Shown here: in pieces, positions 20,062-54,226 of the stretch
How the letters are laid out: each line of letters starts with the position of its first letter
How positions within the stretch are numbered: the first letter of the stretch is position 1
Source: Oscillospiraceae bacterium
Lineage (GTDB): Bacteria > Bacillota > Clostridia > Oscillospirales > Oscillospiraceae
Reading direction: 5' to 3'
DNA length: 64,000 nucleotides
Assembly (NCBI GenBank): GCA_017622995.1
Contig: JAGAQA010000035.1
Span: 32,359-96,358 of the forward strand
Notes under the pieces: model-generated
The model's database searches: none
Told to the model about the DNA's origin: nothing
Seen by the model: the letters and a program-made list of their open reading frames with translations, nothing else
Position numbers and translations under genes: made by a program

Positions 20062-20326
20062 GTCCTCCGCCATGGAATCCATGGCGGAGGACGCAGTCTG
20101 TCAATAAAGCCTCGCAGAGTTCGCTGCGTCAGCAGCGAAAAGAATCTTAATCATTTTCTGCCGGGGCGCGTACCTGGCAGAAAATACCTCTCAGGCTGCA
20201 AGTGTGGAATTTGTTCGCCTATGGCGAACAAATTATGCGCGCGGCAGACTGCAAAAACTGGCGGAAAAGCCCGAAGGGGTTTTCCGACAAGTTCAGTCCT
20301 CCGCCATGGAATCCATGGCGGAGGAC
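20062..20326. repeat. Cluster of six hairpins bounded by two identical 31-nt palindromes
   Basis: GTCCTCCGCCATGG-AAT-CCATGGCGGAGGAC occurs at 20062-20092 and again, identical, at 20296-20326. Between them are four more stems: 20120-20139 (TTCGCTGC/GCAGCGAA), 20153-20185 (ATTTTCTGCC/GGCAGAAAAT), 20208-20234 (12-bp arms, AATTTGTTCGCC) and 20262-20286 (CGGAAAA/TTTTCCG). The right-hand palindrome begins 12 bp after the giant gene's stop. None has a clear U-tract. No coding sequence is seen. It may act as an mRNA 3' barrier or be a small palindromic mobile unit. Confidence 0.85.
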
Positions 20327-20337
20327 GCTTATGGGGT

Positions 20338-23300
20338 TCAAAGCTCGCTGACAAGGTCAACGGTGATGGAAGACGCTGTGCTTTGTGCCGTAAAGATCAC
20401 GTATCCGTTGGCAACAACGCCGGTCATTTCACGGACAGCTCCATCCTCTTCAACCGTCACCGTATAGCGGCAGCCGTTGTAGGCGCTGCCCACATGGTAG
20501 CGGTAGATCAGGAGCCTGCCTGCGTATCTGCCAGCCGTATCCCGTTCAATCACCGGGATACGCACGCCGTCGGAAAGGATCCGCTCCACAATATGGTCGA
20601 TTGCCACACAGTAGTCAAACAGGGTTTTGCCGGGAACCCTTATGGTGAGACGGGTCAGCTTCTGCGCGTCACCGAACTGGTCCTTCCGCAGCTGCTCCGT
20701 GCCCACCCACAGGAAGGCATCCTTCAGATCGCGGCCGAAGACCTCCAGCCCGGTTCCAGGTCTCAGATACTTCTCCAGCGTGCCATCGGCCCTGCGGACG
20801 AAGTATTCTCTTTGATCCGGGTCGTCCCAGAGTTTGTCAAGCCCATGGCCCTCCGTCTGCTCGCTGGCTCCCGTATCAACGATTCTGCGGATGAAGCTGA
20901 GGCCATAGACAGAGGTTGCGATGATGCCGCCCGCGGCCCGGATTGCAAGCTCCGCATCCACAAAGCCGATATTGCCGCCCATATGGATGGTCACGTTGCC
21001 GCCGGAATCAATATCGATTCCGCCGCCGGATACCAGATTGCCGGGGCCGTCAATGGACACATCAGTGCCAGCCTTGATGCCGTCGATCACCAGATCGCTC
21101 TTTCCGCTTGTGATGTCCACAGCTTCGCCTGCAGTCACCTGAATGCGGTCCACATACACATCCACAGCTACGCTGCCGCCGGCCTGAATCTCCAGTTCCT
21201 CGCCGCGGATGGCTGTACCGGGCTTCTGGTCGATGCTGCCGTCGGTGGTGATGTCCACGGAGCCCTCCGCAATCACGTCACCCAGAGACACGTTGTCTTC
21301 CAGATCAACCGCAATGTTGTCGCCTGCGGCGCTGAATTCCGTGGCATCGGTGGACCCGACGGTCACATCACCCAGAGAAATCAGGTTCAGGCTGTTCCCG
21401 TTGGTAATCGCCTCACCAATTCGGATCTCCTCCGGGCTGATCAGGCTGATTGTACCGTCCGCTTCCATGTTCAGCTCGCCGCCAACCTGGATGCTCACGT
21501 AGTCCTCATCCGGATTCCGGGTGCTGCCTGCGATGCTTCCGCCGGTGTGGATATCGGCATCGCCGCCAACCTGGATGGCCAGGCTGTCGCCCTGCTGCTG
21601 GGATTTCTGGATTTGGCCGATCAAAGCTTCCAGCGCGGCCTTCTCTTCCTCCAGGCGCTGCTGGGCTTCGGCAATGCTTCCCGGCGTATTCGCGTCGCCA
21701 TTGAGCACCTCCAGCCGGGCCTGGGCCTCACGCAACGCCTTCTGGGCGTTGTCAAGCAGCTCCACAATAGGCTGGTACTTGGCCGCCACATCGGCGGGGG
21801 CGTTTTCCAGAGCCGTTCTGTAATCGTCGCCGAAAGCGTTCTTCAGAATCGTTTCCGCGGCGTCCACATCAGCCTTGGCTCGCTCCACATAATCCGTATA
21901 GGGGGCCGCAGCCTCACGGGCAGCGTCGTAAGCCTTCCGTGCCTGATCGATTTCAGCCGGATTGCCGCCGGCATAGGCATTTTCCAGATTCTGCTTGGCC
22001 TTCTCAAGGGCCGTGAACTTGGCCTCGATGGCCTCCGCCGCCTTCAGCCTTTCCTGTGCCGCCTGGTTCTGCGCGTTGGCCTGGGCAAGGGCGTCCGCCT
22101 TCTCGGTCAGCTCCTGCTGGGCCTTGGTCACCGCTTCCTGTGCCGCGGCGATTGCAGTCTTGTCGCCGCTTGCAAGGGCCTGGGAAAGGGCTTTGTTGGC
22201 CTGGGTCAGGGCTTCCTGGGCATTTTGCTTGTTCTCGGCCGCATCGGCGGCCTTCGCCTGGGCCTGAGCCGCGTTGTCTCTGGCATCGGCCAGCTCCTGC
22301 TTCCGCTTGGCATCCATATCATTGTTCATGATGGCGTTCCACTGGGCCTGCAGTTCATCCAAAACCGCCTGCTGGGCGTTGGTGTCCGCCAGCTGCTGAC
22401 GATACTGTCTGAGCAGCTCCGTCAAACGGGAATCGGAAGCATCCAGAAGGTTTCCGCCGACATCCATCCGCAGGTCGCCCTTTGCCGTCACGTTTTCCGC
22501 CAGCAGATCGCCCTGCTTCTGAAGGAGATTTACATCATCGCCGCTGAGGATCAGGGTGCCGCCCTTGGCTGCGTCCGTGACAATCTCAAAGGGATCTGTT
22601 TGCGTACCCACATCCGCCTGGGTGTGCAGCTCCAGGCTGCCCAGAGACTTGGCATAGCCGGTGAGCGTATCGCTTCCGTCCACGGTTCGGTCATTGACTG
22701 TCAGATTCGCAATGCCGTTGGGATTGTCGGCCCCAATCAGCTCGATTTCGATATGGCGGGAGGTATCCTCAAATTCCAGTTCCAGATCGCCGGTACCCTG
22801 TACATAGACACCGTCCTGGCTGGTGGTTGTCATGAGGGGATGCTCGCCGCTGATCTGCACCCGAAGGGGTCTGCCGCTTTCGCCCACACCGCCTGTTCCG
22901 GCATCCACAGTAACCTGAGAATCGCCGCCTGTGGTATGGATGTTCTGCTGGCCGGAGGCAAGCTCTTCTTCTGTCAGAACGCTGTATACACCGTCCGGAG
23001 CCGTGATGGAAATGTCATCCTTGGCCTGAATCCGGCCGATATGCATGGTGCCTGTCAGTTCGCTGAGGTAGACGGAGCCGTTCTCACTCTCGGCATCGGT
23101 ACGGGTACCGGCCTTGGGATCCAGATAGCGGACCCAGTCGTACCGCACCACAACCTGCAGAGCCGCCAGAGTGGCCTTCTCGTCCGTCAGGAAGTTGTAG
23201 ACACAGCCGTCGGTGGTGTTGGCCTGCCTGGTCAACTGGCGCAGATCCTGAAGGGCCATATGGGTCTTCAGCTCCGTTCCGTCTGCCATCAGCAGCGTCA

Positions 23301-26300
23301 CTGCCACCGTCTGCGTTTCATCGGACAGCTCGTCGTAGCGCTGTGCCAGCTGGATTCCAATAACGCCCTTGCCGGGCAGGGCGCTGCCGCTGACTGTCTC
23401 CTCGGCATTCTGGTTCCTGTAGATATCCTCCACAGGCGCTGTAATCTTACTGGGCGTCACATCCCGCTGCTCCGTAACCAGAGGCTGCTGGGCGGAACCG
23501 ATGCTTCCCTGGGCCTTGAGGCTGATCTCATCGGCCACAACGTTGGCTTTCCCGTCCTCCAGCTTCTTTGCATCGATGGCGCCGTTTACATTCTCGATGG
23601 TCACATCGCCCCGGCGGGACAGGATTTCTCCCACCAGCAGGGGATTGGCTTCCACCTGAATATGGCTTGCCGGATTCGGGTCAAATTCCGAGGTAAGGGT
23701 TCTTCCGCTGTCCACCAGAACATGGATATCGCCTTCGTTGTTCAGATACAGCGCTCCCTCAATCTCGCCGATGAGGATCTGGCTGCTTCTGGCCGGTACA
23801 TCCACAAAGATGTTGTTCAGCATCTGCGTTCCGGCATAGGCATCCAGGGCCAGATCGCCCATTGCCGCCGCCAGGGAAGCCATGGCATTCAGGTTTTCCG
23901 CCGCCGCCTTCCGATCCTGTTCCTCACAGGAGACCGCCAGGGCCAGGGCCGCCTGTTCGGCAGCGTTGACCTTTTCCCCGGCAAGCTTCGCCGCGTTCAG
24001 AACCACTTCCGCCGCTTTTCTCCCGGTCTCCAGACTGGTTTCATGGAATGCGTCATGATTCAAAAGCTTTGTCAGCAGCGCGTCCAGAGCGGTCTGAAGG
24101 GCCGTAGCCTCAGCGGTAAGCTGATCACTGTCGGCTTCCAGCTGCTGTGCCTGGGCGTACAGAGCCTCTGCCTGGTCCATCAGGCCGTTCATTTCCGGAT
24201 CCTCCGCCGCGTAGGCGCGGTAGCTGTCCTCAATGTCCGCCTTGCGCTTGCTCAGCTCCTGAATTCTGGCACGAATGCCCTTTTCCTGTTCCACAAGACT
24301 GTCGTACCTTGCCTTGCATTGGGCCAGCTCTTCCGCCTTTAGGGGCTTCTCCTGTCCCATGCGCTGGGCCAGCTTCTGCTTTTCGGCAAGAATGCTCCGC
24401 AGGGCATCCTCCTGCTCGGTGAGCGCCGTTTCAATGTCCGAAAGACCCTGTCCGTTGGACACCGCGGCGTTGTACAGGGAGGAAAGCACATCCGTTCTGG
24501 TCTGATCGTCCAGAAGCGCAAAGCCATTGACCAGATCATCCGCCGTAAGAGCCTCTCCGTCCTTCCGGTTCAGCGCTGTCCGGATGGCCCCGAGGGTCTC
24601 CTCGGAAAGGAGGACGTTGTAGAACCGCAGATCGGAATGACCCAGGTAGTCCTCTTCACGGATGGAAATCAGCTTTTGTACCATGGCATCCGCATCGGAG
24701 GCCAGGTAGCCCTGGGTAATCGCGTAGTCCCTGATCTCGCTATAAATCCGGTTGTCATCGGAATCCCGCAGGTTGAGATCCGCGTAGAAGCCGCTGACCT
24801 TATCCACCACGATGGTGCAGGGTACGTCTATGTGGGCGAACTGCTCCGGTGTTCCGATGTCCCCCGCGGCGGCCAGCCGCAGCGAGGTGTCACCGTCCAG
24901 CTTCAGCAGCAGGCTGCTGTTGCCGGTAAGGGCGTTGATGCTTCCTGCGGAATCCAGCTCCGCGGCCACATCGGTGCCGACAATCCGGTCCACCCGGATG
25001 TCGTTGTCCTCGGCATCCGCTTCCGCGCCGGTGGTTCTCAGATAGAGCTTCGCGCTGCTTGCCGTGATGGAACCGGTTTCCAGCCCATCGTCCGCAATCA
25101 TCTGAAGCACAGCGTTTTCCCCGGAGGTGCCTGCCAGCAGGATATCCTCCCGGCAGACATCGGCATCATGTCCCAGCACGGAAACCCCGCCCTTTTCGGA
25201 CTGGAGCCGGACCTTGGACCCATCCTGGATGGTCAGTGCCCGATCCGCAATGTTCTGGCCGTACTGGTCAATGTGCTCCTGGGTTCTGTCGGAGAGATTG
25301 TAGCTGATGTCAATTGCTCCGCCCGTCTGCACGTTCAGCTCGCTGATTCCGTGGGCCGTATAGACCTCACCCTGGGGCGTCAGCGCACCACTCACCTTAA
25401 TATTGTTCGCGATGAAGCCGCCGTCTGTAGCGGTAATGTTCATCACGGTGCCGTAGGCGTGCTCCGCGGGATCGGGAATGGCTGCTTCCGTCATCTGGGT
25501 GTATTGGCCGTCCACCAGCTTATAGACCCGGTCATGGTACACATTGCCGGTAGCCGGAGTCAAGCCGTCATCCAGTTTGATCCGGTCGTTGGGGGTATTC
25601 AGCTCCATTTCGGGGATCCGAACACCCTTTGCCGCCTGAATATCCACAGTGGACGCAGTTGCATACAGATCCAGGGTATTGGAGGAAGAAACGTCTCCGT
25701 CCATATTTTCAATGTGGACCATGCCGTTTCTGGAGGTGATGTCCACACCGGTCTGGACGTACTCATAAACGCCATCCATCAGCAGGTGGATGTAGAAATC
25801 CTCGTTGGACCAGAGGATCTGTGCGGCGGGTACCGCGCTGGCGCTGTCCGCGTCCAGGCAGACCACAGTCACATCGCCATCCAGGTTGATGGGGAATTTG
25901 CTGCCCAGAATGTACCAGGTCTTGGAATTGACATCTCCGGTGCAGTCATCAATGGCCGCGAAGCTGGTCTCCACATACACCCGGTCCGTGCGGACATCGC
26001 CGCCCAGTGCCGTCAGCTCTGCCACACTGTTCTTGACCAGGTAGCGGCTGGGCTGGAGCTTGTCGCCGATGCCGTCTCCGTCGGTGTCCATGAAGTAGTC
26101 CGCCACAATGATGCCGCCGGCGTTGGAGGTCAGGTTCGCATTGGTACTGTTGGTCAGCAGAAGGCCGTCTCTTACCTGAATGTCGCCAAGGGCGGAGACC
26201 GTCAGATCCGCGTTGTCCGTGAACCAGCTGTCATAGTAATTCCGGGCGCCCACATTCAGCAGCTTCTGGGCATCTATGAAGTCGGAGGAGAGATGATCGT

Positions 26301-44300: not shown

Positions 44301-47300
44301 CGTTGGACAGCATCTTCTCCAGGCCCATATGGGTGAGCAGGGTCTGGGTGAACTGGCCAACCATGGCGCCCACAAGATCCGCGGCAAAGTTGCCCAGACC
44401 TTCCAGGATTTCCCGGGAGGCGCCGTCCAGCTTGGAGACAGCGTCTTCCACACTTTCCCGGATGGCCTTTTCGATCAGGAAGTCCAGAATGTTGATGCCC
44501 TTGTTGGACTGGGCCTCTTTGATGGCTTCTTTGGACAGGGCCTTGGCATAGGAGCCGTCGTCATACATTTCCGCGATCAGCTTGATCTCGTCGGCAGTAA
44601 TGGAGCAGAGGCCGATTACGGCTCTGTTGACCGCCTTTACCATGTTGATGGCCACGCCGACGCCCACACCCACAGAGGAATTGACGGCGCTGGCAATGGC
44701 ATAGACCGCGGCATCCGTATCATTGTAGGCAGTCACCTCCAGGGCGCCGTCCAGCTCAACGGAAATGCCGTCGTCAATCACGGATTCGTTCAGGTTTTCC
44801 TGAATGTTGAGGTTAAAGGCCGCCGCGATCTGAACACTGCCCTCGTCCGCGGTCTGGGCCATGCTGCGGTCCCTGGCCATGGTCTGCACCTTGTTGCCGC
44901 TGAGTCCCCGGTTGCCGGTGTTGGCCAGGTTGGAAGTACCGCTGATTGCCTGGTTTGCCTGGGCATCAGACGTGCCGGAGGCAGGGGACGACGCCGTGCC
45001 CGTACCTGACCCCGAGCCTGACCCCGAGCCTGACCCCGAGCCTGACCCCGAGCCTGTTGACCCCGAGCCGGAGCTCGAGCCCGCGCCCGAGTTGTCACTG
45101 GCCGCGCCCTGGGCACCTGCCCGGGAGGTGGACCTGACAGAGGAACGGCCCGTGGTGGAAATCTTCAGATTGTCGCCCTTATAGGAGTTGCGGAGCTTTG
45201 CTCTGGTGGTATCGTTGAGCACGGTGATGGCAAAGGAGCCGCCCAGGCCCACACTGCCGCCTACCGCGGCGGCGTTGGCGGCAACCTGTCTGTCAATGAT
45301 GCTCCTGGCCGCAATGCTGCCATCCAGGGCCTCAATCCGCTTGTTTTCCCGGGTGCGGCCCAGCAGGGCCTCACTGGTCACGGAAGAAATCACCAGCCCC
45401 AGAACGGGGGTGACGGAAATGCCGCCTGCGGAGCCCGCCTTGGCATTCATCACTTCCACGTTTTCGGAATCCGCGGAAATCGTGAGCTTCTGCAGTGGGG
45501 CTGTGGCATCCAGATGGAGGGTGGTGTTTTCACAGACTTCCGCCACCGCGTCCACACCGATGACCGCCACCGCGATCCCCGCGCCCACACCGGCAGTGGA
45601 GCCTTCCGCATCGTCCGGGTTGGCGCCTTCCGCGGCGGTGTTGAATTGGCTCTTGCTCTTGGCTTCCAGGGACAGTGCTCCGCTTCCCAGGTTCACCTCG
45701 GCGGCTTCACGGATCTGCGCATAGGTCTTTGCGCTGACCACATGGACGGTGATGGCACCGGCCACACCGAAGTCACCGGCGGAATAGCCCGCCAGAGAGG
45801 AGGCGGAGGAAACGATGCCCTCCGAAGAGACCGCGCTCAGCGCCGCGCCCTCAGCGGTGACCTTGCCCTTGGAAATGGTAGCCTCGTTGGTGTGATTGGT
45901 GATGGCCACATCCACGGCAACACCGGCGGAGAAGGTCTTGGCGTCGGAGGTTCTTGTGCCGCAGGCATCGGTGGCAAACTGGCCGGTAATGGCGATGGGT
46001 GTTATTCCCGTTGATCTGTCATAGGCCCGCAGGGTCTTGCCCTCAGGAAGCTGCTGATTCAGCGTGAACTTGTATACGCCGTTGTTGTCCAGCCCCAGAA
46101 CCTGGGTCAGCTCGCTGTTATCCGTAAACCGGAAGGTGATCTTCAGGGAATTGGACACCAGACGGTAGCCGGTGTAGGGCGTTACGGTTACATAAATCGT
46201 ATCGCCCAAATCAACGGCAGGCGCCACGCTGATCATGCCGCCGGTGGTTTCCGCCACATTGAGCTTGGCGTTGGCGGGCGGGGTTGTTGTACCGGTACCG
46301 GGAGTCGTGGTGGTTCCGGTGCCGATTCTGGGCTTGGTGGTTGCCTGGGCGCTGAGCATGTGGGCCTTATCGGTGCCAAACTGATATTTGATGCGAAGGC
46401 CTGTCAGAGCAAGGGTTTCCGTAGCAGAGCCCTGAACGGGGAACAGGTTGCCGCCGGACAGATCCGGCAGGGTGAAGCTGTACAGACCGTTTCCGTCATT
46501 GTTGACGGGGATCGACAGCTCCAGATTTTTCTGAATGTTCTGATTATTGATGTCGCTCCCGTAGGCTTCCACGGTGATGACGACCCGCTTGGCGTTTTCG
46601 TAAGCCGCCTGGGACAGATTGAGAACCACTTTGTCCTTGCTGTCGGCCACGCCTTCCACCTTTGCCAGATAGGAAACCACACCGTTGCTGTCGGTGGACT
46701 GCTGGAACTGGCCAAGGCTCAGCTGGCTCTGCTCGGGGGTGGGCTCGTAAATTTCGCTGCTACTGTTGCCGTCGTAGATCTTCAGCTGTACGCCCTTGGA
46801 CGCGAACTTCAGCGTCACATCGTAAAGGGGCATCACAAAGGAGAAGCCGCCGGTGCTGTTGGGCGTTACCTCCAGATTCTTGGTGGCGCCGTTTTCCACA
46901 TAGGTGACAAGCAGCTTGATGTCATCGCTGGTCAGGCTCACATTGTAGTCGTACTTCTTTGTGACATCATTCAGGGTGCCCTTCTTGATGGAATGGATGA
47001 CCACCGTTGTGCCGCCGCGAACCTGGGCGTTGCCGTTGTCATCGACGCCGGAAGCGCCGCTGACCTGATAGCTGTATTCCGCCGCGGGCTTGCTGCCGGG
47101 CGCAGTGGTATTGACGGGCTTCTGGACGCTGTAGAGGATCGGCAGGAATTCCGCGTAGACCCAGTACTTCTGAGACGCTCTGTTAAACAGTTCCGCTTCA
47201 AAGCTGCCCTCTGTCTTCTTCTCTTCCGTGGTGGCTGCGAAGTCGTAGATACCCAGCTTCTCGCTTTGCACCTCTTCGCCTGAGGTTTTTATGTTGTCAA

Positions 47301-50300
47301 GATAGGTAAACCATACCTTACTGATATAGTAACCCTCCCGGGCGGTGAGGTTAAAGGTGATCTTCTTTGCGTTCCCGTCAAAGTTCTCGTTGGAGAAACG
47401 ACCGTTGGTCATTGTGGTGTAGACAACGGTCTTGGTTTCACTTGTTTGTGGATACTCGATTTGCTTCTCGGCGGTCTTCTCATCCTGGACGGTGGCCGCG
47501 CCGTCATTGATATGGATGGTGGTGGTGGCCTTGGGATCCCGGTCAATGGGAGAGGCATCCGCCAGAGACTCGGACTGGGTGGAGGCATCCGCTTTCACAT
47601 TGACGCTGCCCTTCGCCGTTACAAAGCACTTTCTGAGCTCCGTGCCCGTTTCGTCCAGCAGCGCCTGGCCCAGGGAGATGTCCGCCTTGTTGTCGTTTTT
47701 CACGAAGGCAACCGCCACGGAACCAACCAGCTGGCCCTTGTTCTTGTGGGCGGTGCCGGTGGAGCCCATGAAGGATTCCTGGGGGCCGGAGGCGCCGCCG
47801 GCAGACTTGCGGAAGGTGGCCATTACGTCCACATCGCCTTCGCCCATGGTGAAGATGTACCGGCCATTGGTGTCCGCCGCGAGCTCTTCTTCGGAGCTGA
47901 TCACCAAGCCGTTTACGGTATTGCGTTTCTTCAGGGTCAGCTTTTCCAGCTCATAGCCGTCTGCCGGATTGACCCTCACCAGAACCTTCTGATCCTTCTT
48001 TGCGTAGCCGGTATCAAGAGAGATGCTGCCGGTGCCGGCGCTGCTCAAGGTCTCCGGGGTAATCTTATAGACACCCGGGCCGATGCCGGTGGGATACTTG
48101 GGCGGATCGAAGGGCTCTGTGGCGCTTCCGGTTGCCGTTTCCACAGCACCGGCGATACCGGCGTTGCTGTCAATGGCGCCGGTGCCCAGGGTCAGGGGCT
48201 GTTCGTTCTGTTTCAGCTGTCTGAAAACAACCGTCAGCGTTACGGAGTTATCCGGCATAACGAAGGTGAAGTCCGTGGTATCGGGTCTTCCCTCGCCGGT
48301 TTCGGGAACCACGGTCAGGTTTTTCACCCAGTTGGTTTTGGGATCCGTATAGGTGATGGAGGCGGTATCAATGGTATAGCCGCTGTCGGGAACGGCACGG
48401 ACCGTAACGGTGTCGCCGGTGTTGGTTTTCACGGGGGTGGTAACGGTGCCGTGCTCCGTGGGCTTGACGGTGACGGTCAGCTTGCCGCCGCTGATCTGCT
48501 TGATTCCGTTGTCCACCAGGCCGCCCAGCTTTGCCTTGCCAACGGCGGTCAGGGTGTCCTTCTCACCGGTCAGCAGCTTCAGAATACCGGTCATAATGCC
48601 GGTGATGGAGTTCAGGTCCATGGCCTGGCTCTGGCCGTCCGCGTTGTTCATGGATGCCTGGGCCACAGTCCGTGCCTGCTCAACGGACTTGCTGAGAATG
48701 TTGATGTCTCCGCCGGAGGTAAGCTGGGCCCCTTCGGTCACCAGGGCCTTGCAGTTCTGAAGCACCACTGCCACGGCGAAGAAGCCGCCGAAGCTGATGG
48801 TCCCTTCGCTGGGAGCCGGGGGTGTGGTGGTGGTGCCGCCCTCGCCGGTGGAGATGTCCGCCTTCAGCAGCTCCGCGGGAGGATCCTCCTGGGAAATGGT
48901 GGTAACGGAGGAGGTGCCCTCTGCCAGGATGTCAATGTTTCCGCCGGCGTTGATCACGCCGTCCACGGTGGTCACCGCGTCCAGGGATACCACGCTCAGC
49001 GCCAGGGACAGGGGCACGATGCCGATGGTGGCTACGGAGGAGGTGGTGACCTCGGCCTTGCTGGACAGCCGGGTCAGGCTGCCGGAGGTGATGGTGCCGG
49101 TGGAGGTCAATCCCGTGCGGGCGTCAGCCGCGGCCACAACCACGGACAGGGGAACACGGATTCGCTTGTAGAGCTCATTGTTGGATTTCACAATGATTTG
49201 GGCGGTGCTTTCCGCTTCCACCTTGCCGCCTGCCGTCAGGATGCCGTCAATGCCGATTTCGGCCAGGCCAACCTTGACGATGATGGGGAAGGTAGATTCC
49301 TGTAGGCCCGTGTTCAGATGGAAGACGGGCTGGGTCTGAATGCTGGAGGCGGACAGGGCGATGTTCTTCAGGGCCGTCAGCCTTGCGTCTTTGGTGATCT
49401 GAATCTTCGCGCCGGTTTCCAGATCGAAATTCAGGAAGTCGAAATTCAGGCCGGTGTTCACATCGCCCAGCTGCAGGGAACCGGGCTGGGACAGTGCGTT
49501 CTTGTCATCGTCGCTGGCCTGAATGATGATGTTGTCGGCGGTCAGGGCGCCGTCCACCCGGATCTCCTTGCCGTTGATTTCCAGATCCAGGCCGGTTACG
49601 TCGATGCTGCCGATTTCCAGCTGATCTCCGCTGAGCACCAGTCTGGCAAAGTACAGCCGCTTGCCTTCCTCTGCCCGCATGGTAAGGGTGCCGGTTTTCA
49701 TGGTATCGAGAATGCTGTCATCCTCGATCACATAGTTGGTGAAGGAGTTGGATACGTAGATGGTGCCGTCAATGATGTCGCTGTCGGTGATCTCCTGCTG
49801 GGGCTTGTTGGTGATGCCGTCGGCCAGGGCCTGGATGCTGTCGGCATCGATGGTGATGGGCTTGCCGGCCTTGCTTGCCGCGTGGATAACAAAGTTGTAG
49901 TCCACAACCTGCTGGCCCAGCATGACCGCTTCTTCGGCCACCGTGTTTTCGCCATTGCTGTCAATCTCGCCGCTGAGGGTCAGCACATCATAGCCGTCGG
50001 CGCCGTCAATCTTCAGCTTGGAAACGGCATTGGCGGTGTTCATATCCACATTGACGCTGTCGGCGCCTGCGCCCAGATTGACGCTGAGCTCCGATTTCTG
50101 ACCGCTGGCTTTTTCCCCGGAGACAGACACGGTATCGTCGCCGTCGCCGCTGTCCACGGTCACCGACGTTTTTTCGCTTCCGGTGAAGGCCAGGGTCACG
50201 GTGTCCGCGCCGTCGCCGCCTTCAATGGCAAGGCTGCCGCTGCCGCCGCAGGCGGCGGCAATGGTATCGTCCCCGTCACCGGTATGGATGGCGGCATCGC

Positions 50301-51390
50301 CTTCCCCGCTCTGGGTATAGGTAACGGTATCGGCCTCCTGGGTGCCGTAAATGGTGACGCTGGCCTTATTCTTTGCTTCCACAAGGCTGTTGACGGAGAG
50401 GTAGAGACCCGCCATGATCAGCTCAAAATTCTTGGCCGCGTTGACCGTAATGTTGCCGGTCACATTGGCTCCGCCCTCGCTCTGGGCGCCTACGGTGGTC
50501 TTGTCAATGATGCCGCCCTCTTCCGGGGCCTCGTAGGAATCCTCCGCCAGGACGTAGAGCTTGAAGCCGTCGGCCAGATTGTCGCCGGTGGCGTCCACGG
50601 TGATGTCGCCGTCGTACTGGCCTTCGCTGACCACGATGGTAATATACTTGCTGTCTGTTGTGGCTCTTGCCAGGGCTTCCTGGACGGCCTTGTTGATGGC
50701 ATTGTCGGTGGTGGTTTCTCTGGTTCTGACGTATGTATCGTCGGTGGTATCCTGGGGGGTGTTGTTGTCGTTTTTCTGCAGAGCGCCGAACTCGATCCCT
50801 TCCAGCTGCTCCTGTACCTCTTCGGGAGGAACCACCGTCTCGTTGGTGCCCTTGATGACAATGTCGGTGGAAACGGGCTCCGCGCCGGTCTTGGGCTCAT
50901 ACAGCTCGCTGATGACGGAAGTGCCCGGAGTCTGGGTGCCCGTGCCTGAGCCGGTGCCTGAGCCTGAGCCGGTGCCGGGTGTGTAGGGAGGCACCACGGT
51001 TTTGTGGACGACACCGGCATTGTCATAGACCTGGGTCTCAACCACCGCGGGGAAATCGTTGGAGTAGGACAGATCGTCGGTTTCCTCGTTGTTACCCAGC
51101 AGCGCTTCCAGATTGTTGGTTTCCGTTGCCGGTGCGCCCGCAACAGCGGGCGTTTCCACCACGTTTTCAACGATGGTGGCACTGCCCTCCGGAGCCGCGG
51201 TTTCGGACTGCGCAATATCCTCCGCCTCCGGGATAGGGCTCTCCTCGCCCTCCTCCGCCAGGGCCGTCATGGGCAAAAAAGCGCAAAACAGACTCAGGCA
51301 AAGAATCAGCGCCAAAAGCTTGGCGATTCCTTTCCTCAGTCTGTCCCCATAAAGGCGGCCGTCATGGTTTATCCCAAAAGCAGTTTTCAT
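20338..51390 (-). CDS. Giant secreted filamentous adhesin-like protein (about 10,350 aa, LktA-like)
   Basis: One uninterrupted frame of 31 kb. ATG 51390 is chosen over TTG 51405 because GGAGGG sits 7 bp before it. Layout: signal peptide (LLALILCLSLFCAFLPMTALA); Gly/Ser/Thr linker (about 136-150); RTX-like turns GDGDDT, GGDGADT, GDGDDT (about 370-475); beta-helix; InlB-like/bacterial-repeat modules (first near 970-1060, more to about 2750); (SG)n linker (about 2100-2130); helical insert (about 2280-2440); then thousands of residues of repeats with G-x-A/S-x-A-V-x3-N-x3-A, as in leukotoxin LktA-family adhesins; a less repetitive beta region; four 41-residue tandem repeats (about 7970-8160); two coiled coils (about 8970-9180 and 9655-9935) set in beta-solenoid; C-terminus ITVDLVSEL. 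No LPXTG, S-layer or membrane anchor was found. Likely a surface or released adhesin; ligand unknown. Confidence 0.93.
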   Translation of the reverse strand: MKTAFGINHDGRLYGDRLRKGIAKLLALILCLSLFCAFLPMTALAEEGEESPIPEAEDIAQSETAAPEGSATIVENVVETPAVAGAPATETNNLEALLGNNEETDDLSYSNDFPAVVETQVYDNAGVVHKTVVPPYTPGTGSGSGTGSGTGTQTPGTSVISELYEPKTGAEPVSTDIVIKGTNETVVPPEEVQEQLEGIEFGALQKNDNNTPQDTTDDTYVRTRETTTDNAINKAVQEALARATTDSKYITIVVSEGQYDGDITVDATGDNLADGFKLYVLAEDSYEAPEEGGIIDKTTVGAQSEGGANVTGNITVNAAKNFELIMAGLYLSVNSLVEAKNKASVTIYGTQEADTVTYTQSGEGDAAIHTGDGDDTIAAACGGSGSLAIEGGDGADTVTLAFTGSEKTSVTVDSGDGDDTVSVSGEKASGQKSELSVNLGAGADSVNVDMNTANAVSKLKIDGADGYDVLTLSGEIDSNGENTVAEEAVMLGQQVVDYNFVIHAASKAGKPITIDADSIQALADGITNKPQQEITDSDIIDGTIYVSNSFTNYVIEDDSILDTMKTGTLTMRAEEGKRLYFARLVLSGDQLEIGSIDVTGLDLEINGKEIRVDGALTADNIIIQASDDDKNALSQPGSLQLGDVNTGLNFDFLNFDLETGAKIQITKDARLTALKNIALSASSIQTQPVFHLNTGLQESTFPIIVKVGLAEIGIDGILTAGGKVEAESTAQIIVKSNNELYKRIRVPLSVVVAAADARTGLTSTGTITSGSLTRLSSKAEVTTSSVATIGIVPLSLALSVVSLDAVTTVDGVINAGGNIDILAEGTSSVTTISQEDPPAELLKADISTGEGGTTTTPPAPSEGTISFGGFFAVAVVLQNCKALVTEGAQLTSGGDINILSKSVEQARTVAQASMNNADGQSQAMDLNSITGIMTGILKLLTGEKDTLTAVGKAKLGGLVDNGIKQISGGKLTVTVKPTEHGTVTTPVKTNTGDTVTVRAVPDSGYTIDTASITYTDPKTNWVKNLTVVPETGEGRPDTTDFTFVMPDNSVTLTVVFRQLKQNEQPLTLGTGAIDSNAGIAGAVETATGSATEPFDPPKYPTGIGPGVYKITPETLSSAGTGSISLDTGYAKKDQKVLVRVNPADGYELEKLTLKKRNTVNGLVISSEEELAADTNGRYIFTMGEGDVDVMATFRKSAGGASGPQESFMGSTGTAHKNKGQLVGSVAVAFVKNDNKADISLGQALLDETGTELRKCFVTAKGSVNVKADASTQSESLADASPIDRDPKATTTIHINDGAATVQDEKTAEKQIEYPQTSETKTVVYTTMTNGRFSNENFDGNAKKITFNLTAREGYYISKVWFTYLDNIKTSGEEVQSEKLGIYDFAATTEEKKTEGSFEAELFNRASQKYWVYAEFLPILYSVQKPVNTTAPGSKPAAEYSYQVSGASGVDDNGNAQVRGGTTVVIHSIKKGTLNDVTKKYDYNVSLTSDDIKLLVTYVENGATKNLEVTPNSTGGFSFVMPLYDVTLKFASKGVQLKIYDGNSSSEIYEPTPEQSQLSLGQFQQSTDSNGVVSYLAKVEGVADSKDKVVLNLSQAAYENAKRVVITVEAYGSDINNQNIQKNLELSIPVNNDGNGLYSFTLPDLSGGNLFPVQGSATETLALTGLRIKYQFGTDKAHMLSAQATTKPRIGTGTTTTPGTGTTTPPANAKLNVAETTGGMISVAPAVDLGDTIYVTVTPYTGYRLVSNSLKITFRFTDNSELTQVLGLDNNGVYKFTLNQQLPEGKTLRAYDRSTGITPIAITGQFATDACGTRTSDAKTFSAGVAVDVAITNHTNEATISKGKVTAEGAALSAVSSEGIVSSASSLAGYSAGDFGVAGAITVHVVSAKTYAQIREAAEVNLGSGALSLEAKSKSQFNTAAEGANPDDAEGSTAGVGAGIAVAVIGVDAVAEVCENTTLHLDATAPLQKLTISADSENVEVMNAKAGSAGGISVTPVLGLVISSVTSEALLGRTRENKRIEALDGSIAARSIIDRQVAANAAAVGGSVGLGGSFAITVLNDTTRAKLRNSYKGDNLKISTTGRSSVRSTSRAGAQGAASDNSGAGSSSGSGSTGSGSGSGSGSGSGSGSGTGTASSPASGTSDAQANQAISGTSNLANTGNRGLSGNKVQTMARDRSMAQTADEGSVQIAAAFNLNIQENLNESVIDDGISVELDGALEVTAYNDTDAAVYAIASAVNSSVGVGVGVAINMVKAVNRAVIGLCSITADEIKLIAEMYDDGSYAKALSKEAIKEAQSNKGINILDFLIEKAIRESVEDAVSKLDGASREILEGLGNFAADLVGAMVGQFTQTLLTHMGLEKMLSNDIETKFKNFADSFGTKVSDSAMSVMKNVLLTYVLNRFSHLAKTPLNTAINKLTGTVNIPGVPAPNNSAASGTTGQTPAASTGAVGEIQRIINGLPQNQQTELRELGLMSGVALETFANQLFGDFVNVTQLKTYFTAGFGQNVTASIINALTDSGKAATDSVLSALSEWTDAQVVPAREYPTHTFRTHAVSGAGATNIGVAGSLALAIINTQTLAYVKDAASAGSGEAYPISVENGFIIRSQNKQYEDTIASSAVNAEEDAAPATQNSTQTNAAGTGPQAPAKTYDGGVLTVGETENGLVNNVTVTRDGNKPTYTLVITPNPGYKVEKVTYTITTPGTGGGTPTTSAPVQVNFANSQFRFTVNQDLPAPAAGQTYSGTTVNVTVTFSKILEPKLVIVGQVDNQTGGTTGGTGSTGGTGTTGGTGTTTAPALTTYKIDGFTFTVEKEVTTTGANGQATQGTANAGNNETVKAGTKITVKIKPNDPSAPNGGAATTKFVDGIVLTYTAPGGIAKKVTVKTMETAASAAGTSAAGAAAAAATGEKTYWFRMPEINQDGVEANAKVTMEVNMVDVAPVTTPAGAANAAAAANSAATGTSIGIGASFAFNYVNKNEDARTASFIGKYRTVHTGTISMVAMLQNDLRTSAAAGADPLADRSEDGTPSEDPMDIALDAAVAIGEINNKVYTYIAEGAKVTAYKSDLDIGSFDEEEYLASLPGEYTEEEKQAALEQARSQAQDLVSVYLSSRQEGHTLATAGSFAIGASAAVGACAAVNYANSDVCAQLQGTVTAPGKARILSQTYNTDDAFATATAMGADIQRYLDRLGAGVTKAEDIANGDYGLANNPRTQSSSTRAIQNAGGLTQPGVPSGANQQNSNIPGGGANVPATQDKGVQVAAAVGINITKHQAKALVSGSLTALDVKLHAENNANFRSRANGATVTLASSNLAIAAGVAVSVNQNKAIAENSGTIITRLPEGGNPEEPGNLVIVAVHTANMDGIYRGTLGAQALAGSVTGKGSNATISGAFAVLRSKAETRAATMEGSVLNARGDLEITASDKTKLAVRAGGVSVSTGTSIGVGASFALIYAENQVLALVEDGTKTLKCGGDLKVNAIKHKVTMADYDLSLDKSMLITDTTGLTAEEEAQVTKGVLNLKKGGSGYEVTINMSTDKLIDAIDLLNFLSSVNYYAEAVAGAIVAPSGDSKFALAGSFAMLFYGNQVKAYVGKLEKDAQITVDGSAEVLARNETTARLIAGSLNVSPATLGVGLTVGSICNSANSLTDITRAETAGKLSVGGSFTQRAENDTDYLSVTVAASVADGASGNAVGGAVNVIDMQNHVQSAVTGEVTAEEAVDVLALNHARLIIVPLAVAAGLGSKVAGGAAVSVIVTGTDTQAWTGSGAKLTSKGGSVAVRALTDEGLMAFTTAAAATSGNIAGSASFAVVISNSRTEAAVKGSTLNAKRDVIVLAQGDTWTLTTILAASASSNTAAAGSVAVSIFNRYVGAKVTGNAKLTAEQGSILVEAYGDDFFVNVVLAAGGSGSMAISGSIPVIVSSSTVEAVVNGDDAANGRATLTAGDSISVIADLAGKSYMAAGALSASGSTAIGATIDTAVYSNRVTAAVDNAVLTASCRYLSNLADRAPNRVTRRRGITVSATADNSIMTFAVSGGAGGSMAITGVVNTLVVENNVRALVGRNEELSDADEETEGSQEGSGRQKGYVSLTTGGEIAVDAEDDSDLADAAGALAVGGSAGAGATVVTLVYNKSVRAILDAQTVSAEKAVSVTANSDDDVFLLAISFGASGSTGVAGNVNVLVFGSAIEAAIGSVSMAKSVTVHAESNANLYNIATSAALSGAVAATAVAVVTYFENETLAHVLAGAEGAHTVIGSDEQKISGDVDIEAISREMVTADAAGASGSGTVAVNGAVDVIVTQFTTKAYTGDYVDIYATGDVTIHGSDAFDVYAVVAGLSIGAGGVGLGVVTLVSVSYSTVEASIGTYNTIDGRDVKVAALADRNVLGVTANIGGGATAGVALTVTVVLVGNEMTQDAHDGIYKDGMDPEAQVTEGFKTDESNSSQAARTNALKDKQRENGEMTALLKGNGQSTQGGDYNDFGQSASADTTVYDENKNTVKENQDIDDARDSVQYTGSAAALGSKTYKDAVSAIIGSGSTVTATGNISVTAGDVLNANIASGVVSAGMGGVGVGISVAILHSNVNAEVCEETTLSADGAILVEASAGAKPMTELEPVQDSSARMANQPRATGEADYSENNITPKYCVNVSDDTFEVDKNAKEGDYSKAKYESGQSAIRLMSLMVSGGMVSVNACIAVLQVFSQSNAVLAGSVVKATAPTGEANVPGYAVTVHSNMDFGQVMTANGTLSGGVAAVNCSSAGTYFGGKTKAAIEGSGTIQNITGNIRVYTTGVTRAIGAAASAAAGVGSGNATFVMAVNRSTAETYIGRDVTITAKNSDVEVYHNITAEARAYNIALSGGLVAVNANVVLIINNFVAHSWIGDPSDTILSSESGKLTAKNVRVSAYANTVTEGIGTAAAAGGVAGNALVALAFNTTGNKASVARKSITADCLTITSTIDGDTTIWATSLAAGAVGFGAIVSAAFSEADNTARLDLSDSVMEIDEVFIHAGTEEKPNNNQALVFGVTGAAGGAAANLNIGIARNSGYNRALVTGAGGSLTANSLQIDAIGLGRAYAVLAGAAAGVLSAQVSVAVAYLKNVQEAKMDCQSVVNIQKGDTGLNGNVTVKSTQKTSGSDFDFGSFELTVSKDNKKLGGAFTTMAQALVFTAGAGALTATASTANAISDATSRALVRAEQLTAVNIEVTNNAESTAAANIGSIGFGLKSEGLHSGYAYAKGTFEALVQTKGGLSDVKTNIDAAGLNISNTYVSNAKAVITPAVGGVNASLSEEKVNVATARNLTKARTGILGGETSGGVINVTGAVDITATGTALSEARVNTPVISISSVSLTANAATADVKVTQETLIENVTLTADSLTVKSELNKDSVFDDDSKYSGALAVIGGSYALGKDVTGVSISKVAATANSANALFSGKNHSYVSNANLDIAGAVALSAESRSFARGDVMQDSKLGLVSLFLTEIYAYAGGDFGSYVSNSTGKKVKGKSVKISNTYTARAKSMSAQSDSGIDASLVSAGANVALAHTRVISKAGISGGEAEANQTSEEGDIQVSLTGNAKAEASFYGPLAKLSAANLAVNFVEARLLDQQDAYIKDATVTAYDVSVYSSFNESDRQVAASATIAGGGQGGGGSLSVSGISINTNTAIADAASKVTSLIENASVDAKGKLSVKTLGNAIAKSDYSGSENAAALLAFGVFVSKAATSGSFRAYVNNGAQNIGAASLEILSQYTAVADACTTTPGKGVDVALASGTVNLAQATVNADSTTVSGRASLTSGGNVTIGNDVTVQVTGKGLANARSIGSKLSLSLMGIAVTDVYAYLQMKQDAYIQNSGSFTAGNVTVESLIDSSSYDGKVNYGTANASGGQATNDDYQTKEEDREKITLFGSDSVKTEAKTVSVNNAYLKGTGTNTMKAGKVKVFARSVTGADTHSSMPDEIAGIAFNNVSSNAYTNDSVHAYLSGVNLEAVSLTVEGVATSVANALAETGSGLSGVKFTKADTNAGIGTGANGRQSAQAGITGGSVKARKDIVVRAFNKGSATANIKSGAQESVFGNVENKTLPTASYYNTKAYANGDTKLVSELGSISITTEDDARAQSIVSGANVSAGGIINLDYTKGENQVDVVNAIELKGTMDAYAHFTARTISNANMTARSSKDGKGFYAASKISAKNTLTRSATIRVLDGTVIKANFGKLDILAEAGRGDIITTNAKIDSDGVISTAKIDIDVTVESTAQVIVGAAEIRNRFGTVTIGADSSENSVNSIGSTDASGLGTAPRADICNNITLTANTAIKPNSKAVIEGTVVNIVSYIGSLYINGQAYAKGSALGADVDAISNQTIRLKANTEIDNADITAHDRADIYASVKPEYRSANIRYYAAVQLNAIGEGKAHALGEVNAQAKTTIGSRFVYRGAQVTITGYDFDEARIECNLRDRGFIYHHSVNDTGFGGNPYTSTVASGASFYLGDAAGGMYVDIAYNGGNPGGGVIVRQAGVRGSSYYTLGADQITLKDLVNNLPGKAFLYGTVDAINVYDQRSISGATITNGTDLKLIVPEFSGTNSGYIYPSVIVNGAAYSVDYKAPGYGAPTFTITTSGKGDVEIKNLLALYNGKLTIEWTGETGGKLTAEKEVSILNSKDKTAPIWANELNIIHAASIGTKEIPLNVWMTSYNAASAVISATAQGDIFLNVVPAVMTIKNVGSGNSAAPVLVKEVRSQAGSVELTLGSVLDITMEPDTMMVTMPVPGTLSYETQTVALTADSSINGLELLDRYLNGYDAATGLYRYLLPNGTVFWMDAFHNVSRIEESKTTMAVGDYTFQRNDQGQVTSIGLNNGVHIDLATGQLYVDANASFDVLFSVVNAQAYFVNAQGVLFPNIKVRLSSSKDANGNVLTGSVDSENVKDVVEWDVKPVKLYTAGSLTYYYLTGLEPAFGKLDNAEGKTYYILVYDSGANSVELFSLGSSTQIEDDSDNRDYFWYLTGNTHDDGAYLTKDGPDKSEESEQPAYYIHKAKQNANMTFTFNNFAGTGYGATLEYRNGEPVLKLVNGSNAIPLVKVPGMGYTAGAETNNLTANEKAFLAKLRTRIFRTETESEVVTTVTAYNESWSNSKEITANDGDNFKLAEYTWTHREVKKFIGIDFLAKDVLTPRYQYGSITMHGYKMLLDYTELLPTDASLSMEYYATGKKYEITVNGSTITVFENPEDGELYTSEDFKPEEKLAFQAELEKYDDKYTVTKDGQTLKIKVADTEVEVVFYESAKIKGTDRYKLDGISGILAEVQNGKVRLVTEQKIYEKIEESDVKYQYETGKIILQSSDTTYTVTPVEAPAAGQNGEVTVSHVADTGTTGVTIVIKSDGKYYLRTVTTDDQGAQTTTDTELTNNGKEIVVTDYAALVYAQADAETGNKFQFNLEGVKLGSDNNVVDPGKPLFYNTSTKDGYLYYLSDETAHTFTKYNEIQYKSGSKGLYYSETKYNTYDGNEDLSTAKEELYKPTGKEILTYADGTQFAGGAIYRGGEGAPTFVPKSYVTNENLASGVLVLRPGSSNPGGSSTLTIDGPIAKEQPVPIKTVLVPTKNQTPAPGYRITDTLYLTKSGLAVNLVMENGSVVFESRFDGTNYTSDHITATSFGTMGQARELEYDINGMIRHNGKLYLRMGNLLALFEDGVLTPLSVGESNEILYTVAPTTDNVPAIQILEKEKVFLERLTPEICVDIQGSYWYLPKDAETPCWAAAQETSSFRLRAAGTTTVTFGGKVYLVISHDNDGNLCFAMPQSGVLAKSNGVITRTDDSQMDVKIVENTTTKTDYAIGQIGTEGALEDVTVTLGSPVASLVNGNTDKTLQNIQTNGGDVILIAQGDKASLGTSGTDPLIIDAANGTVKVRTPDNAETIAVNTYLVLTQDTTLTPENIIVDGVEYKVVGKAQDSTDKVDITCGSLRVINGGLADISTDGTLYFTYLGVDDQNSTGNSKAVLQAAESITVEELNTAGGTTELTSTGGSVTVTELTASDNASVTVNAATAFESETMDVTGSTVSVTGGGTGKITNLTATEKASVTVDVDSNFESETMKVTGSEVSVTGGGTGKITDLTATESANVTVDVATAFESERMEVTGSTVSVTSDGTGKITNLTATESANVTVDVATAFESESMDLTGSAVTVTSDGTAQITDLTASDSAAVQVHTAGDITLGTLDLEDATAAFTSLSDANGYALPGSGSITGGGKFTADYVEADRSRLEIDVWQDLRIFNETGDEASGEDRMENVLVLRDMHGSQTVGNTQQKRGAFLTSRNGAVDSTHDDYSVYTAGDGSAFFLQDGQWYALEGSGDSLRFVKLETAPDLTGYTDRGRYSLYIGSSDENASGYLPDYAGVLVLERSGDFYQIAADGIQKDDHLSSDFIDAQKLLNVGARNYYDSWFTDNADLTVSALGDIQVRDGLLLTNSTNANLTSNAGGIIVADYFMDTDGDGIGDKLQPSRYLVKNSVAELTALGGDVRTDRVYVETSFAAIDDCTGDVNSKTWYILGSKFPINLDGDVTVVCLDADSASAVPAAQILWSNEDFYIHLLMDGVYEYVQTGVDITSRNGMVHIENMDGDVSSSNTLDLYATASTVDIQAAKGVRIPEMELNTPNDRIKLDDGLTPATGNVYHDRVYKLVDGQYTQMTEAAIPDPAEHAYGTVMNITATDGGFIANNIKVSGALTPQGEVYTAHGISELNVQTGGAIDISYNLSDRTQEHIDQYGQNIADRALTIQDGSKVRLQSEKGGVSVLGHDADVCREDILLAGTSGENAVLQMIADDGLETGSITASSAKLYLRTTGAEADAEDNDIRVDRIVGTDVAAELDSAGSINALTGNSSLLLKLDGDTSLRLAAAGDIGTPEQFAHIDVPCTIVVDKVSGFYADLNLRDSDDNRIYSEIRDYAITQGYLASDADAMVQKLISIREEDYLGHSDLRFYNVLLSEETLGAIRTALNRKDGEALTADDLVNGFALLDDQTRTDVLSSLYNAAVSNGQGLSDIETALTEQEDALRSILAEKQKLAQRMGQEKPLKAEELAQCKARYDSLVEQEKGIRARIQELSKRKADIEDSYRAYAAEDPEMNGLMDQAEALYAQAQQLEADSDQLTAEATALQTALDALLTKLLNHDAFHETSLETGRKAAEVVLNAAKLAGEKVNAAEQAALALAVSCEEQDRKAAAENLNAMASLAAAMGDLALDAYAGTQMLNNIFVDVPARSSQILIGEIEGALYLNNEGDIHVLVDSGRTLTSEFDPNPASHIQVEANPLLVGEILSRRGDVTIENVNGAIDAKKLEDGKANVVADEISLKAQGSIGSAQQPLVTEQRDVTPSKITAPVEDIYRNQNAEETVSGSALPGKGVIGIQLAQRYDELSDETQTVAVTLLMADGTELKTHMALQDLRQLTRQANTTDGCVYNFLTDEKATLAALQVVVRYDWVRYLDPKAGTRTDAESENGSVYLSELTGTMHIGRIQAKDDISITAPDGVYSVLTEEELASGQQNIHTTGGDSQVTVDAGTGGVGESGRPLRVQISGEHPLMTTTSQDGVYVQGTGDLELEFEDTSRHIEIELIGADNPNGIANLTVNDRTVDGSDTLTGYAKSLGSLELHTQADVGTQTDPFEIVTDAAKGGTLILSGDDVNLLQKQGDLLAENVTAKGDLRMDVGGNLLDASDSRLTELLRQYRQQLADTNAQQAVLDELQAQWNAIMNNDMDAKRKQELADARDNAAQAQAKAADAAENKQNAQEALTQANKALSQALASGDKTAIAAAQEAVTKAQQELTEKADALAQANAQNQAAQERLKAAEAIEAKFTALEKAKQNLENAYAGGNPAEIDQARKAYDAAREAAAPYTDYVERAKADVDAAETILKNAFGDDYRTALENAPADVAAKYQPIVELLDNAQKALREAQARLEVLNGDANTPGSIAEAQQRLEEEKAALEALIGQIQKSQQQGDSLAIQVGGDADIHTGGSIAGSTRNPDEDYVSIQVGGELNMEADGTISLISPEEIRIGEAITNGNSLNLISLGDVTVGSTDATEFSAAGDNIAVDLEDNVSLGDVIAEGSVDITTDGSIDQKPGTAIRGEELEIQAGGSVAVDVYVDRIQVTAGEAVDITSGKSDLVIDGIKAGTDVSIDGPGNLVSGGGIDIDSGGNVTIHMGGNIGFVDAELAIRAAGGIIATSVYGLSFIRRIVDTGASEQTEGHGLDKLWDDPDQREYFVRRADGTLEKYLRPGTGLEVFGRDLKDAFLWVGTEQLRKDQFGDAQKLTRLTIRVPGKTLFDYCVAIDHIVERILSDGVRIPVIERDTAGRYAGRLLIYRYHVGSAYNGCRYTVTVEEDGAVREMTGVVANGYVIFTAQSTASSITVDLVSEL
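26915..27485 (-). repeat. Four 123-bp tandem repeats inside the giant gene
   Basis: The anchor GGATTCAAAG or a close variant recurs on the plus strand at 27022, 27145, 27268 and 27391, exactly 123 bp apart, with partial units on both sides. Each encodes 41 residues of the form FESExMxVTGSxVSVT, GTGKITxLTATExAxV. The period is a multiple of three, so copy-number change keeps the frame. Near-identity between units points to recent duplication. Confidence 0.92.
45005..45052 (-). repeat. 12-bp x 4 microsatellite encoding a Ser-Gly linker
   Basis: CCTGACCCCGAG (plus strand) is repeated four times without change at 45005-45052, followed by a degenerate unit to about 45075. It encodes an alternating Ser-Gly stretch in the giant protein. 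Slippage by whole units would lengthen or shorten the linker in frame. Confidence 0.92.
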
Positions 51391-51689: not shown

Positions 51690-51775
51690 GCGATACAAAC
51701 ACCCACACTACCATTATAGCAGAAAACCGGCCGGCGGGAATACCCGCCAGCCGGTAAAAATGGGTAGTTTTCATT
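51690..51775 (-). promoter_or_regulatory. Distal promoter module of the giant gene (copy 1 of duplicated module)
   Basis: On the minus strand: ACTACCCATTTTTACCGG, then a 12-bp-arm palindrome around TATT (51727-51754, one mismatch), then TTTTCTGC-TATAAT-GGTAG with an extended -10 (51718-51713). No good -35 is seen; the palindrome occupies that place, which suggests a regulator binds there. A similar module precedes the 722-residue protein gene. Confidence 0.7.
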
Positions 51776-54057: not shown

Positions 54058-54122
54058 GGGGTTTTCGTCTCCTTTCTTGCCCGAAAGCGGACCCTGTTGC
54101 CGGGCCGCCGGGGCACGCGGAT

Positions 54123-54215
54123 ATGGTATACGCATCCACCCTATCATTGTAGCAGAAAAACGGGCTTCCGGGAATACCCGTCCGGCCGGTAAAAACGGGT
54201 AGTTTTTCTGTTCCA
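54123..54215 (-). promoter_or_regulatory. Promoter module (copy 2) of the beta-helix protein gene
   Basis: On the minus strand: ACTACCCGTTTTTACCGG, CGGGTATTCCCG, then GTTTTTCTGC-TACAAT-GATAG, with the extended -10 hexamer at 54151-54146. It matches the module upstream of the giant gene over roughly 80-90 bp, including the CGGG-TATT-CCCG dyad at the -35 position. The 5' leader would be about 80 nt. Confidence 0.7.
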
Positions 54216-54226
54216 AGCCCCAACGG

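Follow-up and report, generated by a model that had tools for sequence, protein, structure and literature searches.

The Fusobacterium leukotoxin LktA, from which the 53-residue repeat model NF012206 (LktA_tand_53) presumably takes its name, is a toxic protein whose two-partner secretion (TPS) domain works with an outer-membrane partner. Very large secreted proteins are also described from Gram-positive bacteria: the proteins Giant1 to Giant5 of Apilactobacillus kunkeei, of 3,000–8,000 residues, are encoded by a cluster of consecutive genes, and four of the five have a predicted N-terminal β-solenoid like that of the serine-rich repeat proteins (PMC12863079). Among bacterial proteins of more than 5,000 residues in UniProt, surface proteins for attachment or recognition are given as the second major group in a survey whose main text does not contain the words leukotoxin, adhesin or Clostridia (PMC11573180). 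Here we describe a gene for a secreted protein of 10,350 residues (hereafter, the giant) and an adjoining gene for a membrane-anchored tetratricopeptide repeat (TPR) protein in an Oscillospiraceae bacterium. Both lie in a 64-kb stretch of DNA (the window; positions 32359–96358 of contig C25), which is free of N and comes from a 2.55-Mb draft genome that consists of 66 contigs.

Comparison of the giant with these and other described systems revealed that (i) it shares with the filamentous LktA-repeat proteins of NF012206 the same 53-residue repeat, which scores over the curated NCBI cut-off (101.4 versus 50 bits on residues 3250–4250), but the giants occur in Bacillota and Coriobacteriia, mostly have 6,000–13,700 residues, match no TPS domain and usually have a TPR gene as neighbor; (ii) by description it is like Giant1 to Giant5 of A. 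kunkeei, being a secreted protein of a Gram-positive gut bacterium with thousands of residues, a signal peptide and long internal repeats (PMC12863079), and it falls within the size class of more than 5,000 residues surveyed in UniProt (PMC11573180); (iii) it has the Flg_new_2 modules of InlB-type Gram-positive surface proteins, but as a small part of the chain; and (iv) it does not have the C-terminal motif, segment and tail of LPXTG proteins anchored by sortase. The TPS families of Pfam gave no match at E ≤ 1 in residues 1–8300 and none at E ≤ 0.1 in the rest of the chain and eight neighbors, and leucine-rich-repeat models likewise gave none at E ≤ 1 in residues 1–8300 and none at E ≤ 0.1 in the rest of the giant. 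LktA-type repeats and giant secreted Gram-positive proteins are known kinds. The membrane-anchored TPR gene beside the giant is a new observation, and no paper on this family with its TPR partner was found among the open-access literature matches listed.

An intact giant gene under purifying selection

The giant gene (20338–51390, minus strand) is an open reading frame of 10,350 codons plus stop, which runs from an ATG at 51390–51388 to a stop at 20338–20340, the sole stop in its translation. About 342 stops would be expected in as many random codons at 59% GC, and the other two frames of the sense strand contain 417 and 268. The sequence GGAGGG is located about 7 nt 5' of the start, and the N-terminus, MKTAFGINHDGRLYGDRLRKGIAKLLALILCLSLFCAFLPMTALA^EE, as read by eye, resembles a Sec signal peptide (residues 1–45, 51256–51390, minus strand) with a putative cleavage site after MTALA. 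The proposal of the sequence-only reading that this is one giant secreted protein, with an unbroken frame, a ribosome site and a start like that of a signal peptide, is therefore upheld.

An orthologue was found in a metagenome-assembled genome (MAG) from water-buffalo rectum (locus L040, genome G531), where it lies on two contigs as frames of 4,221 and 6,338 codons without stops. In separate BLAST searches, the two pieces matched residues 17–4201 and 4155–10347 of the window giant, with 4,125 and 6,129 aligned codons and identities of 63.7% and 64.0%, respectively. The dN/dS ratio (Nei–Gojobori) between the window giant and this orthologue was 0.16–0.32 in all 22 segments of up to 500 residues; dS was about 0.8–1.5, near saturation, so that the ratios are approximate, and no segment came near 1. 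In the repeat core (residues 3001–4500) the ratio was 0.17–0.22, and outside the core selection was nearly as strong (0.16–0.32). With dN/dS far below 1 throughout, purifying selection maintains the frame, as had been expected from its intactness, and the open frame and this selection together identify the giant as a real, intact gene.

On the opposite strand, an antisense reading frame (24637–45009, plus strand) stays open for 6,790 codons within the giant, and this longest antisense run exceeded those of all 200 synonymous shuffles of the window giant. The sense frame contains the codons TTA, CTA and TCA at just 12 of its 10,350 positions, and these include 3 at residues 142–148 and 5 at residues 2111–2128, in linkers. 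We rejected a second, antisense gene because these codons are rare and clustered, which best explains the run, and the clustering is lost in the shuffles; no coding test of the antisense frame entered this judgment. In 4 relatives (G074, G007, G031, and G126), 23–78 of 100 shuffles reached the observed run. Counter to the rejection, none of 100 shuffles did so in G080 and none of 200 for the 5' piece of the orthologue in G531; for the 3' piece, 4 of 200 did.

A promoter scan 5' of the giant gave one sigma-70-like site versus 0.8 expected, which is no evidence of a promoter, and Rfam had no match in 10200–57500. Residues 3701–5300 matched none of 50,697 phage and 72,556 plasmid records, and a phage or plasmid origin was rejected on this ground. 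For a genomic island, the flanking genes guaA and udk were each sought in 30 relatives and matched in 18 and 19 of them, the window's own genome included; where both were matched elsewhere they were located on different contigs, and an empty site was not demonstrable.

A family of giants in Clostridia and Coriobacteriia

The giant core (residues 3250–4250) was matched at E ≤ 1e-10 in 8 of 121 genomes of the same genus, the window's own included. The giants of this genus have open frames of 7,300–13,720 codons; 4 of the 7 relatives are cut by contig ends, and the complete ones besides that of the window have 13,697 residues from the ATG (G074), 8,330 residues (G080) and 7,597 residues (G007). 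At the level of the class, 4 of 391 genomes matched the core, again counting the window's own, and 2 of these have a stop inside the matched stretch.

A scan of a collection of 84,980 species gave 52 giant loci in Bacillota and Coriobacteriia, 6 of which are contigs already in the genus set. Their hosts are Oscillospiraceae, Lachnospiraceae (among them Blautia sp. Marseille-P3087 and strains of Faecalicatena contorta, including ET52), Pullichristensenella and other Clostridia, and 6 loci are titled Coriobacteriia, Coriobacteriales, Atopobiaceae, Atopobium or Eggerthellaceae. Many of the source titles, not all, name rumen, intestine or rectum. Core stretches were readable without stop in 34 loci. 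A whole-genome search from 46 of the 52 loci found the core in 44 of 44 genomes, with frames of up to 13,007 codons and no stop in the listed core matches, and several of these genomes hold more than one giant. The window gene had been regarded as a rare single gene: the intact giant stands, but it is not a lone oddity, being one of a family whose members mostly have a TPR neighbor.

In a tree of 38 cores, the window giant groups with that of L040 and then with that of a Lachnospiraceae MAG (L042) at 100/100 and stands apart from the other giants of its genus; the G080 core groups with a Candidatus Fournierella core, to which it is 86% identical. Taken with the patchy distribution, this grouping suggests that the family has undergone horizontal transfer or contains old paralogues. 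As separate observations, core matches are located on 4 to 5 different contigs per genome in G552, G556, and G572, and the giant frames of L077 and L065 end early or are split, which may reflect broken genes or assembly errors.

The membrane-anchored TPR companion

The TPR companion gene (18611–19981, minus strand; 456 residues) adjoins the window giant downstream. A single transmembrane segment, as read by eye, is located at the N-terminus of its product and precedes TPR repeats (Pfam TPR_2, E 6.7e-15), and from the positive-inside rule the TPR domain is expected to face the outside of the cell. All 6 giants of the same genus with a readable relevant flank have an adjoining TPR gene on the same strand, located downstream in G000 and G074 and upstream in G007, G031, G080, and G019; in G110 and G126, a contig end truncates the 5' side of the giant. 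Over the whole family, 38 loci had 576–4,000 nt readable 5' of the giant, the others being cut by contig ends there or not fetched. A TPR gene stands beside the giant in 28 of the 38: immediately upstream and in the same orientation in 26, and downstream in the 2 genus members named above. It is also located downstream in the orthologue genome G531, which is outside this count. In one locus (L118, on G564:C8), 2 tandem TPR genes of 499 and 594 codons precede the giant with the 13,007-codon frame, and the second giant of the same genome (6,690 codons) has no TPR gene in the flanks read.

The two genes nearly coincide in the genus. A profile of 7 giant-side TPR proteins matched 8 of the 121 genus genomes at E ≤ 1e-80 and 2 more weakly; the associated hypergeometric value of 1.0e-9 is given no weight as a probability, because 6 of the 7 rows of the profile come from the genus itself. 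The window TPR protein alone matched 10 of the 121 genomes at E ≤ 1e-5. Seven of the 8 best-matching genomes (G000, G007, G126, G031, G136, G074, G080, and G019; E from 3e-297 to 1.5e-9) hold the giant core, and G136, the eighth, has a giant-like start with a signal peptide at the end of its TPR contig. Among 10 giant genomes from named loci, 8 matched the window TPR protein at E ≤ 0.001, and the 2 without a match are Coriobacteriia. The distances between TPR proteins and between giant cores are correlated across 20 loci (r = 0.632; 0 of 5,000 permutations), with the same nearest neighbor for both proteins in 13 of the 20. This set comprises 20 of 29 pairs, 8 of the others lacking a core row in alignment A2 and one (L069) having been dropped as partial.

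Domain architecture of the giant

All of the following features lie on the minus strand. A region common to the same-genus giants by blastp collinearity (residues ~217–942, 48565–50742) is located near the N-terminus and includes a few DGDD turns at residues ~365–470. It is followed by a divergent InlB B-repeat domain (Flg_new_2; residues 972–1057, 48220–48477; PF18998, E 5.4e-10), the best of 3 such stretches. With 39.6 bits versus a cut-off of 23.6, PF18998 is the sole Pfam family over its cut-off in residues 1–8300; beyond residue 8300, in the last 2,050 residues, Pfam gave no match at E ≤ 0.1. A Gly-Ser linker, recognized from the translation and as a tandem repeat, occupies residues ~2100–2135 (44986–45093).

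The LktA-type tandem repeat core extends over residues ~3253–4377 (38260–41634). NF012206 stays under its cut-off when the giant is scanned in longer pieces (23.0, 31.9, and 27.3 bits), and it matches 37 of the 38 family members at E ≤ 0.01, a threshold on E and not the curated cut-off. Our own repeat hidden Markov model found 25 units in the giant at E < 1e-3, 17 of which are located between residues 3253 and 4377; in the densest part (residues 3563–4337), the starts of the units are 41–78 residues apart. An alignment of the giant against its own sequence was uninformative, with just the trivial match over the full length.

Toward the C-terminus, Tandem Repeats Finder identified 4.2 copies of a 123-bp (41-residue) repeat at residues ~7982–8151 (26936–27447). 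Two helix-rich stretches were recognized from composition: residues 8986–9130 (24001–24435), with a weak match to an SMC-related model, and residues 9633–9940 (21571–22494), probably a coiled coil, with an SMC-type match far under its cut-off and with alignment A3 as additional evidence.

The sequence-only reading had listed RTX-like turns, InlB-like modules, LktA-type repeats of putative solenoid fold and coiled coils in one chain. The InlB-like modules and the LktA-type repeats were both recovered by models scoring over their cut-offs, and the coiled coils agree with the composition of the 2 helix-rich stretches, where the SMC-type models stay far under their cut-offs. The RTX-like turns did not hold up: the giant has just 2 DGDD and 2 G-x-[DN]-G-x-[DN] motifs, and calcium-binding repeat models gave no match at E ≤ 1 in residues 1–8300 and none at E ≤ 0.1 in the rest.

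C-terminal ends

The C-terminal region of the window giant (residues 10160–10350, 20341–20913) was examined by hydropathy and motif scan: no LPXTG or transmembrane anchor was found, with no LP.TG anywhere in the chain and no transmembrane anchor, sortase-type motif or x-TGD motif in the last 70 residues. The giant may thus be shed, or it may be held at the cell by other means. Across the family, 9 of the 29 ends examined (one of the ends, L077, is perhaps broken) have a hydrophobic segment above 1.8 in the last 70 residues. Two of these 9 (L130 and L139) combine a sortase-type motif (LPKTG, IPQTG) with the transmembrane segment, and an x-TGD motif precedes a hydrophobic stretch in 3 Lachnospiraceae ends, 2 of them among the 9. 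The C-termini differ strongly among the giants of one genus. The last 400 residues of the window giant were matched in 2 of 60 genomes, namely the window's own and, weakly, G019, in which the matches are located on contigs other than that of its giant core. A role of the TPR gene as substitute for an anchor was rejected, since giants with transmembrane ends also have a TPR gene and some giants have neither.

Other features of the loci

Two copies of the palindrome CCTCCGCCATGGATTCCATGGCGGAGG are located between the giant and the TPR gene (20062–20325), and the stretch 20200–20295 has 13 further long copies (91–97% identical) elsewhere in the genome. A gene for a beta-helix-repeat protein with a start like that of a signal peptide (51889–54216) precedes the giant in the same orientation, and a terminator-like hairpin (51726–51755) lies between the two. 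At 11100–17868, a signal peptidase I gene directly precedes a gene for a 2,073-residue LPXTG protein with collagen-binding-like domains; the latter has many H-x-H...C motifs near its N-terminus, and the GC content here is lower than in the surroundings.

In 6 of the 38 loci (L138, L140, L119, L120, L111, and L121), a gene for a PrsW-type intramembrane protease is located 5' of the giant, and in 5 of these 6 a gene for an extracytoplasmic function (ECF) sigma factor is also present in the stretch read; the loci belong to Coriobacteriia and Clostridia. By Pfam, the PrsW assignment is confirmed for L111 and L138, and that of the sigma factor for L119 and L138; our PrsW and sigma models were built from some of the same loci. 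This arrangement suggests envelope-stress control of the giant at such loci.

Discussion

On balance, we hold it probable that the giant is a Sec-exported surface fiber, probably an adhesin, and that its TPR partner assists export, assembly or retention. The protein would be exported through Sec by means of its signal peptide and would form a fiber, on the cell surface or shed, built partly of LktA-type repeats, InlB-like modules and helical segments; export and surface location are drawn from the signal peptide and from the anchors in relatives. If a solenoid extended over most of the chain, the fiber could be about 0.2 micrometer long, an estimate from coil sizes. By analogy with other giant repeat proteins, the fiber would most likely serve attachment, with host mucus or epithelium, digesta particles or other cells present in the gut as candidate targets. 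The outward-facing TPR partner would probably act on the chain at the membrane, while it is exported or thereafter, in folding, assembly or retention, as neighborhood, co-occurrence and topology suggest.

Several findings weigh against this explanation. With regard to the TPR partner, (i) no upstream TPR gene is present in 10 of the 38 loci, comprising 5 of 5 Coriobacteriia loci read (L046, L047, L062, L067, and L070) and 5 loci of Clostridia (L064, L066, L075, L079, and L086), and the downstream flank is TPR-negative as well in 9 of these 10, L070 being the exception whose downstream flank was not seen; the partner is not universal; (ii) the TPR model was built from the 6 companions in G000, G074, G007, G031, G080, and G019, which match by construction, 4 of them among the 26 upstream cases and 2 of them the downstream cases; (iii) in 2 of the 26 (G126/L165 and G136/L164), the TPR contig ends in a giant-like start and shows no more of a giant; (iv) G023 (1.1e-8) and G085 (1.0e-7) follow close behind the best TPR matches and have no giant core, and G110 has a giant, cut at the 5' contig end, and no TPR match; (v) the correlation of TPR and core distances can be explained by joint inheritance alone, and in G537 the TPR proteins of its 2 giants are closer to each other than the giants are; and (vi) the presence of a TPR gene and the lack of an anchor are not associated among the giants. 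With regard to the giant, the window protein has none of the anchors sought at its end, and the core is not recognized in Pfam or among solved structures: Pfam, TPS families included, gave no match at E ≤ 0.01 in any of the 38 cores, and a search of solved structures gave no convincing sequence relative of the core, just low-complexity matches in linkers and matches at chance level.

A more specific form of the same idea, which we offer tentatively, is that single-membrane bacteria have, in the giant and the TPR protein, a two-component system dedicated to export and assembly. The membrane-tethered, outward-facing TPR protein would take over the chain of about 10,000 residues as it emerges, and would control its folding or keep its end at the cell. 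Such a system would be a Gram-positive counterpart of two-partner secretion in logic, not in parts, and in some lineages it would be preceded by the ECF sigma factor and PrsW cassette.

An inert giant surface layer or matrix (a shield, a phage decoy or a biofilm scaffold) in place of an adhesin with a specific ligand seems unlikely. It would fit a repeat-rich chain with a cysteine content as low as 0.34%, the patchy occurrence in 8 of the 121 genus genomes and the presence of several giants per genome; a bulk function would not obviously need selection that is nearly as strong outside the core as inside it.

That the giant is a secreted cytotoxin of the LktA kind, damaging host cells as the Fusobacterium leukotoxin would, is improbable. 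The repeat over its curated cut-off speaks for this, as does the window giant being without a cell anchor. But at E ≤ 1e-8 per repeat the same repeat model matches open frames of 1,007–7,244 codons in 14 of 398 genomes of the phylum, of which 4 pass the cut-off and none is the window's own, and the family is spread over many Clostridia and Coriobacteriia, so that the repeat alone is no marker of a toxin. The 38 cores contain no Pfam domain, that of two-partner secretion included, and several relatives have a C-terminal anchor.

In other bacteria, long stalks deliver C-terminal toxins to rivals, and the strong divergence of the C-termini within one genus would suit a contact-dependent or polymorphic toxin of this type, in which the giant stalk brings a variable toxin to rival bacteria. 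We regard this as quite improbable, given that the last 2,050 residues have no Pfam match at E ≤ 0.1, that 9 of 29 ends are transmembrane segments, and that the neighbor is a TPR protein mostly located upstream (26 of 28) and not, as would suit an immunity gene, a small variable gene 3' of the giant. The 66-contig draft, the broken or split look of L065 and L077 and the stops in 2 of the 4 class-level matches might bring to mind an artefact of annotation or assembly, or a gene in decay; this can be dismissed in view of 10,350 stop-free codons, dN/dS far below 1 and listed core matches free of stops in 44 of 44 other genomes.

For genomes of 2–3 Mb, single genes of 20–41 kb that purifying selection maintains represent a considerable investment. 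They raise the question of how a chain of more than 10,000 residues can cross the membrane through Sec and be folded or retained, for which the TPR neighbor is a concrete candidate helper. The idea of such a helper is testable in named strains that carry relatives of the giant, Blautia sp. Marseille-P3087 and Faecalicatena contorta ET52.
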